Positions 15,006-18,709 of a DNA stretch of 64,000 nt are shown one piece after another (within the stretch, counting starts at the first letter, position 1; each line of letters opens with the position of its first letter). The notes below the pieces were generated by a model, which did not search any database, was not told where the DNA came from, and was given only the letters and a program-made list of their open reading frames with translations. The DNA is taken from the NCBI RefSeq assembly GCF_004803755.1, contig NZ_CP032311.1:1070501-1134500 (forward strand), given 5' to 3'. A program made the position numbers and the translations under genes. This stretch comes from Pseudomonas sp. DG56-2. Its GTDB lineage: Bacteria; Pseudomonadota; Gammaproteobacteria; Pseudomonadales; Pseudomonadaceae.

Positions 15006-15151
15006 GTAGGGGTTACCGCAAGGTTTCTGGGGATCTGCCCCGGACATAACATGGGTGGTTCGCACTGCGAGCTACGAGCGGCTACGCCGCAAGCATCAAC
15101 CTGCCGGTGTCGACACCGGCCGATGAAAACCACAATTAGGAGAGATCGACA

Positions 15152-17300: not shown

Positions 17301-17885
17301 CTGTTGGCCCCTTCCGCCCTTACGGCGGGTCCCTTTTGTCTTGGCAAAAGGAACCAAAACCGTGTGTCCCTGCATTCGGCCCTACGCTGCGCTCCGGGTC
17401 CCTTCGCTCCGGCATTGCTCCCGTCGGGACCGCACCGAAGGGCCGTCCTGGCCCTACGGTGCTCGCAGGCCATCCATGGCCTGCACCCGACTACGCAATA
17501 CCTACACTCAGCCTACTGAAGGGACGATCCAGGGTGTCTGGGCTGACGATGTAAGAAGCGCCAGATCAACATCAAAAGCTGATCACCAGCGCCTCGCCTC
17601 GCCTCGCCTTGCTGTTGCTGTTGCTGTGCTTCTCCCTGCACAAATCGTGCAGACGCCACAAATCGTCCCTTCAGCAGGCCGAATGGAGCCCTTGCGGAGT
17701 GGGGCGACGGCCATGGATGGCCGGCGAGCGCCGCAGGGCCAGGACGGCCCTTCGGCGCGGTCCCCACGGGAGCAAGGGTGGAATGAGGGAACCCGGAGCG
17801 CAGCGTAGGGCCGAATGCAGGGACAGGCCCATGCCCACTTTTGCCCCGACAAAAGTGGGTCGCCGTAAAGGCGAAACCAGCCAGT
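17301..17885. repeat. Long imperfect inverted repeat, about 240-bp arms with a 110-bp loop
   Basis: The left arm (about 17301-17540) and right arm (about 17650-17885) are diverged reverse complements. Paired landmarks, read from the outer ends inward, are TTACGGCG, a TTTTG-loop-CAAAA hairpin, CGGCCCTACGCTGCGCTCCGGG, GGGCCGTCCTGGCCCT, GGCCATCCATGGCC, and CTGAAGGGACGAT. Each arm contains its own hairpin: CCTTTTG/CAAAAGG at 17332-17352 and a perfect CCCACTTTTG/CAAAAGTGGG stem at 17834-17859. Translation of the arms gives the same GAQRRAECRD-type peptide on opposite strands, which explains the spurious reading frames here. No gene is supported from 17146 to 18077. This looks like a Pseudomonas intergenic repeat family inserted as two opposed copies. 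Confidence 0.85.
17591..17627. repeat. Compound microsatellite in the loop of the inverted repeat
   Basis: Four GCCTC-type units (the last ending in T) run directly into GCTGTT units, two complete and one partial. The array sits between the two arms of the large inverted repeat. Confidence 0.85.
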
Positions 17886-18077
17886 GGTGCCACCATATCA
17901 AACGGATATGCCCATCGACACACGAGCCACATTCCGGTGCTCACCCGCAAGCAGGCCCGGTGCGTAGTTCACGGAATTCCGCGATCAACCTTTTTGGCGC
18001 GTAGCGAACATGCTCCACTGGCAGTGAACCATCCGCTAGGAGCGGACTTGTTCCCGTGCTTCCAGCCAGCCGCCCAG

Positions 18078-18374
18078 CTATCGATGAGAGAAAATACGGT
18101 GCACGCCAAGCCCATCAAGCACTGCATCGATCAATGCCCGAGCAGCTTCTACGTGCTGGCCTGCGCCGGAAACGATAGCGCGGTCGTTGAGGGAGAGGTG
18201 ATCGAGTGCATCGCTGACCGTGGCCTCGGCGCATCGCAGTAGCTGGCAAGCGTGAAGCAGCGCTTCTTCGGCGGGAATGCCTTCGCGGACGTTGAACATG
18301 CCGTTGGTGCCGAATGGCGTGTTGGCAGTGCTTGCGGTGGATAGATCGGGGGGATCAGGGACGAGCTTTTTCAT
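18078..18374 (-). CDS. DUF6124 (former DUF3077) small protein
   Basis: A 98-residue soluble protein that begins MKKLVPDPPD, the invariant start of a Pseudomonas-specific small-protein family (DUF6124/DUF3077). The core FNVREGIPAEEALLHACQLLRCAEATVSDAL matches the family pattern of an amphipathic helical segment. Function is unknown. Many Pseudomonas genomes carry several scattered copies. The ATG at 18374 follows GAGG. The leader upstream on the same strand is highly structured (see the C4-like entry), which suggests RNA-level control. Confidence 0.82.
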   Translation of the reverse strand: MKKLVPDPPDLSTASTANTPFGTNGMFNVREGIPAEEALLHACQLLRCAEATVSDALDHLSLNDRAIVSGAGQHVEAARALIDAVLDGLGVHRIFSHR

Positions 18375-18395
18375 AGTTGGCCTCGAGTTATGAAG

Positions 18396-18546
18396 CCACC
18401 ACGCTTCGCTGCTAAACGGAGGTGGCAGCTGTACGCGGGTTAGCAGACCGGATACTCGAGGAACCCCGGCGCACCCGAAGGCGCCCCACGTACAACCGCC
18501 ATATAGCGTTGTGCCGTCGACATCGAGTATTGAGCCGGACTGCTAA
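18396..18546 (-). ncRNA. Possible C4/CI-type antisense RNA leader of the DUF6124 gene
   Basis: Read on the minus strand, the transcript contains in order: element A, TTAGCAGTCCGG (18546-18535); a 9-bp outer stem GTACGTGGG/CCCGCGTAC (18493-18485 with 18439-18431, one G-U); an inner GGCGC/GCGCC hairpin (18485-18468); element B, CCGGTCTGCTAA (18451-18440), lying single-stranded just before the outer stem closes; and element C, TTTAGCAG (18416-18409), inside a CCACC/GGTGG loop (18425-18396). B is complementary to A at 11 of 12 bases and to C at seven bases. This resembles phage P4 CI/P1 C4 RNAs, where a processed antisense RNA pairs with leader targets to stop transcription or translation. The family match is from memory; the base pairing is seen directly. 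Confidence 0.5.
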
Positions 18547-18709
18547 ATCCGATCGTTGGATTTTCCAACGACGACAGCAGCCTAGGCCCAGGAAGGGCCT
18601 GGCACAACAAGGCAACGGCACCGGAAGTATGATTCAGAATAGTCCGACAGAAAACGCCTACAGACTTGCGATTTGTCGCTGCCCGTTGTGAGGTAGGCGC
18701 TGTCGCCAA

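Follow-up and report, generated by a model that had tools for sequence, protein, structure and literature searches.

C4 RNAs are known as phage-immunity regulators. Why, then, should the leader of a small DUF6124 gene on the chromosome of Pseudomonas sp. DG56-2 look like one, and what might such an RNA control there? All coordinates refer to the window, the whole 64,000-nt stretch of DG56-2 DNA that was analyzed, in which the DUF6124 unit lies on the minus strand.

The leader of the DUF6124 gene

A sequence-only reading of the window had proposed a C4-like architecture for this leader, and the Rfam covariance search that it called for returned a match along the full length of the model. RF01695 aligns to 18506-18418 (-) with 74.8 bits (cut-off 45, E 8.9e-13 over 64 kb). 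The positive controls, the C4 RNAs of phages P4 and P1, scored 74.9 and 68.8 bits with the same model, and no match above the cut-off was found in any of 14 control genomes. The window c4-a1b1 element (RF03163) reaches 43.1 bits, just below its cut-off of 46.7 (E 2.3e-9), and the isrK model matches the same stretch weakly (22 bits against a cut-off of 50). Read in the direction of the gene, the elements follow in the order a1-b1-C4-a2-b2-gene and are located as follows.

18088-18690 (-): ~0.6-kb unit common to orthologous cassettes elsewhere in chromosomes, as delimited by the ends of blastn homology
18625-18639 (-): promoter-like conserved TTCTGAATCATACTT, present upstream in orthologous cassettes; putative promoter
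18532-18585 (-): c4-a1b1 element (RF03163), two hairpins, the second exposing a1 TTAGCAG (18546-18540)
18523-18530 (-): b1, target of the loop guide on the upstream side, ATACTCGA; 8 uninterrupted Watson-Crick pairs
18418-18506 (-): C4 antisense RNA (RF01695, model positions 1-87 complete)
18485-18501 (-): 5' arm of the C4 closing stem P1 (Rfam alignment and covariation)
18452-18465 (-): b', loop guide of hairpin P3, GGTTCCTCGAGTAT (Rfam alignment and pairing test; loop not placed by the single-sequence fold)
18440-18446 (-): a', linker guide CTGCTAA (Rfam alignment and pairing test)
18423-18439 (-): 3' arm of the C4 closing stem P1 (Rfam alignment and covariation)
18409-18415 (-): a2, target of the linker guide, TTAGCAG; 7 uninterrupted Watson-Crick pairs
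18392-18402 (-): third strand GTGGTGGCTTC, complement of the C4 stem 3' arm (18430-18422) and partial complement of the Shine-Dalgarno
18381-18388 (-): b2, loop target ACTCGAGG, containing the Shine-Dalgarno GAGG; pairs with the C4 hairpin loop over 8 uninterrupted Watson-Crick positions
18078-18374 (-): DUF6124/DUF3077 gene, 98 aa, N-terminus MKKLVPDPP, with PF19619 and PF11275 matches

The pairings described in the earlier reading were reproduced. Its element B (18451-18440, CCGGTCTGCTAA), which contains the linker guide, is complementary at 11 of 12 bases to an upstream element A (18546-18535, TTAGCAGTCCGG), which contains a1, and over seven bases to a downstream element C, identical to a2 (TTAGCAG, 18415-18409). 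The GGCGC/GCGCC hairpin is present where it had been placed, and the 9-bp stem formed by 18431-18439 and 18485-18493 turns out to make up the inner part, about half, of a closing stem of 17 bp, in which the Rfam alignment pairs 18501-18485 with 18439-18423.

A second guide had gone unnoticed. It lies in the C4 hairpin loop (18461-18454, CCTCGAGT), and all 8 of its bases can pair with ACTCGAGG (18388-18381), the Shine-Dalgarno region, which ends six bases ahead of the ATG. A further 8-base match to this loop is found upstream at 18530-18523; the linker guide pairs over 7 contiguous bases with the downstream a2. Among the nine leaders of its own genome, the loop forms its most stable duplex with its own Shine-Dalgarno region (-15.5 kcal/mol); for the linker, four sister leaders pair better than its own by duplex energy. 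The blocking logic first proposed, in which B pairs with A or C, stands as far as the pairing itself is concerned and has to be amended at the blocked site, which is predicted to be the Shine-Dalgarno, reached through the hairpin-loop guide, and not C only. Following the naming used for Acinetobacter baumannii (PMC5320573), b' denotes the loop covering the ribosome site, and the remaining guide is a'.

The 89-nt C4 RNA folds with -49.6 kcal/mol (z -4.76) and the 266-nt leader with a z of -6.84; none of 200 shuffles matched either value. When the window sequence is folded by itself, the minimum-energy structure retains the 17-bp closing stem and draws the interior as one long hairpin from which the family hairpins P2 and P3 are absent, and the position of the guide loop consequently rests on the family alignment. 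Compensatory changes, the other check that had been asked for, were found among 83 sequences in an alignment that was fitted to the C4 model and is thereby biased towards the structure: changes on both sides occur at 14 of the 17 pairs of the closing stem, at all 5 pairs of P2 and at 3 of 6 of P3. In the same alignment, 96.6% of the structure cells are paired, as compared to 36-42% after displacing the partner by 1-3 columns. At the level of sequence, these analyses support the C4 reading of the leader: it carries a member of the C4 family with two guides, a1/b1 and a2/b2 targets for them, and a b2 that lies on the Shine-Dalgarno.

The protein encoded downstream matches PF19619 (41 bits, cut-off 27) and PF11275 (26.6 bits, cut-off 21), and its predicted structure consists of two long helices (mean pLDDT 86.8). 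Twenty homologous proteins were found, all of the organism-named ones from Pseudomonas. The two matches in PHROGs were weak (best E 0.0025) and of unknown function, and candidate relatives of solved structure found by sequence were set aside as chance at a best E of 0.012. No function for DUF6124 or DUF3077 was found in the literature searched; the only paper found to mention DUF3077 describes a P. putida DUF3077 pseudogene, altered in a furfural-tolerant evolved strain, with no function demonstrated there (PMC9630843).

C4 loci and their guides across Pseudomonas genomes

That the arrangement recurs at several loci per genome had been anticipated, and the DG56-2 genome indeed contains nine C4 units, with matches of 69.7-79.2 bits. 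All nine have a c4-a1b1 element close upstream (25.8-65.9 bits, six of the nine above cut-off) and, 43-56 bases downstream, a reading frame starting M-x-K-x-VPD; in one of them (G000:2168110) the first ORF is only 30 codons long. C4 was present in 72 of 79 genomes sampled from the genus versus 18 of 274 sampled from the class, each sample including DG56-2. Three complete genomes hold 54 (52 above cut-off), 47 and 30 C4 matches, and per-genome counts near 47 in the 79-genome survey are to be read as at least that number.

The link to DUF6124 was apparent from either side. In four genomes, C4 lies upstream of 92 of 105 DUF6124 matches (same strand, at most 900 bases), and it is directly upstream in 64 of 67 named relatives of the window protein, a sample biased by having been found partly via the peptide MKKLVPDP. 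Four of these relatives come from metagenome bins labelled Formivibrio or Paucimonas, the others from Pseudomonas. Across the 79 genomes, C4 and DUF6124 counts correlate with a Spearman coefficient of 0.88 (kinship ignored); C4 occurs with no DUF6124 match in 13 genomes and DUF6124 with no C4 in one. Fifty of the 140 C4 loci of the four genomes have no assigned DUF6124 match, and the other C4-led genes comprise Bro-N genes, DUF3077 genes and families without Pfam names. In two genomes (G048 and G061), C4 also stands upstream of ~100-aa RYMPL/LLIDT proteins, a second small-protein family, three members of which were scanned and gave no Pfam match.

An N-terminal xPxPP motif tends to accompany C4: among 12 C4-less DUF6124 regions it is intact in none, with something similar in two. 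These class labels come from regular expressions, one of which assigns 89 of the 140 loci to the xPxPP class and a second 93; seven of the 140 have no ORF under the rule used. One C4-led gene (G048:C1:6041087) has a TPNPP N-terminus fused to a Bro-N domain, a fusion which suggests that the first codons travel with the leader. Indispensability of C4 to its gene (addiction) was rejected, as two C4-less named relatives (L235, L245) keep an intact MKKLVPDPP gene and, with it, the xPxPP motif. Two further C4-less DUF6124 genes (L186, L187; from G048 and G061) belong to a subfamily of their own, set apart by the N-terminus, and may be older representatives of the family.

Each guide was tested against every leader of the same genome at the 140 C4 loci of the four genomes (9, 54, 47 and 30 loci, counting the two of the 54 that fall below cut-off, at 40.2 and 39.8 bits). 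The linker guide finds at least seven contiguous pairs in its own leader downstream at 123/140 and upstream at 127/140 loci, and the loop guide at least six pairs downstream at 98/140 and upstream at 91/140; loop-target matches fall short of six contiguous pairs at 42/140. For all four combinations of guide and side, the observed mean was never reached in 2,000 trials of reassignment within genomes. Both guides match the own leader at 93 of 140 loci, and a foreign leader in 10 of 5,966 pairings.

The two guides differ in how far they discriminate. P3 loops are distinct at 9/9, 54/54, 47/47 and 29/30 loci of the respective genomes, whereas linker 7-mers recur between loci (for example, 30 distinct among 54). 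Ranked by duplex energy, the own leader comes first for the loop guide at 62 of 140 loci, with 4 expected, and in the DG56-2 genome it is the most stable loop partner at nine of nine; for the linker guide it comes first at only 15 of 140. The linker was rejected as the main specificity element on this ranking, strong as its contiguous matches are. With loops nearly all unique and linkers ranking poorly, insulation appears to rest mainly on the loop. Given that the guides vary from locus to locus, a unit should act on its own gene and on almost none of its sisters, and mutual insulation of the C4 units is accordingly offered as a prediction.

A sister species gives a view of how guides change. 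P. arcuscaelestis (L189) has a C4-DUF6124 unit at the same chromosomal site as the window. Identity to the window is 96% at the PAP2 end and complete (100%) over the intergenic stretch; the gene stands at 97% and the leader as far as a1 at 94%. It drops to 60% in the b1 stretch, 80% in C4 and 67% between a2 and the ATG. The new loop fits the new Shine-Dalgarno region over 9 bases, and the upstream b1 match comprises only 5 pairs. In this pair of species, the loop guide and its predicted Shine-Dalgarno target have changed together beside near-identical flanks. In four of nine close orthologues (L194, L195, L196, L198), b2 has only 5 contiguous pairs, which by our reading belong to a 10-bp match interrupted once by a G-U. 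Comparative sequence evidence of these kinds establishes both guide-target coevolution and the C4-DUF6124 link.

Eight orthologous cassettes were found at other loci in P. putida, P. donghuensis, P. alkylphenolica and Pseudomonas sp. H9. Their similarity to the window begins at the promoter-like stretch and stops with the gene (~18690-18088), with blastn homology ending near 18679-18693 and 18076-18091. Homology restricted in this way at other loci indicates that the unit relocates as a ~0.6-kb piece, a size that refers to the window's own subfamily. Among 15 other genomes with a PAP2 match, the groEL-PAP2 gap measures 187-321 bases in eight (L257-L264), too short for the unit, and ~1.3 kb in one (L265); groEL was not seen beside the PAP2 match in the remaining six (L266-L271). 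The upstream flanks of four relocated cassettes (L190, L195, L197, L198) contain whole or partial GTGGGAGCGGGCTTGCCCCGCGAT repeats, which we take to be REP-like. In Pseudomonas sp. H9 (L197), a deletion running from the a1 site into the gene has removed C4 and the gene start.

A predicted antisense switch and its alternatives

We consider it probable that the DUF6124 mRNA leader holds a C4-type antisense RNA acting as in phages P1 and P4. A C4 RNA of ~80 nt would be excised from the leader by RNase P and would pair with a2 and b2 on further copies of its own mRNA. Pairing at b2 would stop ribosome binding and lower translation, and elongation would perhaps be lowered too; in the work on P1 and P4, Rho is involved. 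Pairing at a1/b1 would provide a second, earlier control point, and the output would be the small two-helix protein. For the window C4, processing to a short RNA and repression of the DUF6124 gene are what we infer by analogy. RNase P cutting of C4 is reported for P1/P7. Published accounts of P1, P7 and P4 describe C4 as cut from its transcript and blocking translation and CI as causing termination (PMC5320573, PMC12197685, PMC4825925, PMC8198154), the latter through pairing with upstream seqA and downstream seqC (PMC4825925).

The upstream region was examined for other signals. A motif resembling TTCTGAATCATACTT is found at five of the nine DG56-2 loci, with a looser form at a sixth; a sigma-70 consensus promoter was looked for upstream of the window unit and not found. 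By our own yardstick for a putative terminator, at least five T within 60 nt upstream of C4, the window C4 has no T-run. Such runs are present at 24/26 class-level loci, 18/30 top genus loci, 19/89 xPxPP-class loci and 1/9 Bro-N-like loci. Bro-N-like loci thus mostly lack a T-run as well, so its absence is not special to DUF6124. Intrinsic attenuation at an upstream T-run was rejected as a general mechanism on the 19/89 figure, and the scarcity of T-runs at xPxPP-class and Bro-N-like loci makes upstream intrinsic termination an unlikely general output in these genomes.

The leader holds one more conserved element. Between a2 and the Shine-Dalgarno, GTGGC[AG]GCTCC is matched at 8 or more of 11 positions in 63% of 113 leaders versus 2.9% of shuffles. 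This third strand resembles the 5' arm of the C4 stem and is complementary to the 3' arm. Over the loci that pass ORF and distance rules (132 or 113, according to the test), none of 2,000 permutations equalled the covariation between third strand and cognate C4 3' arm, and the CTCC of the third strand forms at least four pairs with the Shine-Dalgarno in 68% of cases versus 38% when shuffled. The third strand could compete with C4 formation or keep the ribosome site closed.

It bears on an alternative that we regard as unlikely: a switch acting in cis only, in which C4 stays part of the leader and its loops pair with a2 and b2 of the same molecule, or in which the C4 stem faces competition from the third strand. 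All elements do lie within one ~260-nt leader, locus-specific guides would fit cis action equally well, and the complementarity and covariation of the third strand with the C4 3' arm are what such competition would call for. Against this, the most stable leader fold retains the C4 closing stem, the C4 of P1/P7 is reportedly released from a longer transcript by cleavage before it acts on target mRNA, and the C4-like RNAs of A. baumannii show processed read patterns (PMC5320573). A C4 RNA excised and acting on further mRNA copies is the reading we retain.

The remaining alternatives look to phages, and the surroundings of the unit bear on them. Its neighbours include groES, groEL, FxsA, a pyridoxamine oxidase-like gene, a PAP2 phosphatase, a two-component pair, a methyltransferase, a Kdo/WaaP kinase and an RND pump, groES being named by eye and from its leader RNA. 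This leader, Pseudomon-groES (RF01721), scores 75.8 bits at 15006-15120 (+), upstream of groES. Between groEL and the unit lies a large, imperfect inverted repeat (17312-17876, ~74% identical to its own reverse complement), which contains a TwoAYGGAY RNA match at 17701-17764 (43.6 bits, cut-off 43). The unit had been described as lying outside any prophage. For its surroundings this is accurate, the seven scanned neighbours, PAP2 and the response regulator being ordinary chromosomal genes; it needs qualifying in that C4 and DUF6124 both have matches in phage records.

Those matches are few. For the window protein itself, none was found among 50,697 records of phages and 72,556 of plasmids, and a search of IMG/VR with one peptide pattern gave 15 pattern matches, none confirmed. 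A TPNPP-type DUF6124 piece from another genome matches one of the 50,697 phage records, EU982300 (phage DVM-2008), and C4-like DNA matches eight phage records. At positions 52-538, EU982300 holds a C4-led DUF6124-like gene at the edge of the record, divergent from prtR. The window unit has chromosomal neighbours and a DUF6124 target, where a phage-immunity locus would have a phage or prophage site and an antirepressor or replication target, and it matched none of the PADLOC defence families.

We regard as very improbable the idea that chromosomal C4 RNAs confer phage immunity by silencing the antirepressors of incoming C4-bearing phages. The C4 of Pseudomonas phage PAShipCat1 does precede a gene annotated as anti-repressor Ant (in PAJU2 the gene that follows is annotated only as hypothetical), and such a role has been suggested for A. 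baumannii (PMC5320573). Most chromosomal C4 loci, however, have their own adjacent target, and guides of the xPxPP class matched phage-type targets (four phage records and ten Bro-N-like or ALNPS loci, other genomes only) with at least seven pairs for both guides in only 1 of 1,042 pairings, as compared to 6 of 5,338 with xPxPP-class targets of other genomes. A bank of phage-immunity guides was dropped on the 1/1,042 result. Least probable of all is a non-functional remnant of a prophage immunity region, dropped even though C4 is classically a phage element and broken units exist (the L197 deletion, the 30-codon ORF at G000:2168110), given that the scanned neighbours include no phage genes, the stems covary, guides and targets covary, and the loop guide and Shine-Dalgarno target were rewritten together beside near-identical flanks.

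Known C4 systems and implications

The trans-acting C4 switch that we favor has its closest counterparts in phages. The P1/P7 C4 (immI: c4-icd-ant) shares the family match, the a' and b' guides, upstream and downstream matches, and a b2 at the ribosome site. The window unit differs in having a chromosomal DUF6124 gene in place of icd/ant and no phage genes nearby, and the Pseudomonas units in being multi-copy with distinct guides; the P1 third strand is only 5 nt long. The P4 CI RNA (seqA-seqB-seqC) resembles the window C4 in score and in its third strand of 9 nt. Unlike the window RNA, CI silences the P4 replication genes (PMC4825925), and by the same pairing test P4 has no upstream linker match longer than 4 nt within 130 nt. 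In PAJU2, where the third strand measures 8 bases, and in PAShipCat1 the downstream linker match is only 4 bases.

Chromosomal relatives are also on record. The Group 1 C4-like sRNAs of A. baumannii have many chromosomal copies, a variable a' region and apparent processing, and the sections of that source available here name no gene family with them (PMC5320573). Most Pseudomonas C4 RNAs, by contrast, are tied to an adjacent small gene and have their own matched targets. In the Gifsy-1 system of Salmonella (IsrK/AnrP/AntQ), IsrK is called a structural homologue of the P4 SeqA RNA (PMC4825925); that system is a prophage circuit, and the window falls far below the isrK cut-off. PMC5320573 quotes a prediction from 2010 of C4 in Pseudomonadales, and PMC2864571 lists C4 in Proteobacteria and phages. 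The RNA family is therefore already known. In titles and abstract openings of mainly open-access literature, no chromosomal, multi-copy, locus-specific C4-DUF6124 set was found, nor any link of C4 to DUF6124 or account of locus-specific C4 sets in Pseudomonas, and as far as that literature shows the Pseudomonas set is new.

On a broader hypothesis, which we hold to be about evenly balanced, Pseudomonas has domesticated C4 and amplified it into up to dozens of relocating, mutually insulated riboregulators, each for its own small protein, with the loop and Shine-Dalgarno rewritten together so that new copies arise without cross-talk. If this is true, these genomes would contain a naturally arisen library of orthogonal antisense switches that may maintain itself, and the C4 RNAs of Pseudomonas would constitute a large chromosomal regulatory family. 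With dozens of guide/target pairs per cell, RNA-RNA specificity, insulation after duplication and guide-target coevolution would become directly testable, and the C4-DUF6124 units would be candidate orthogonal riboregulators as well as a first handle on DUF6124.
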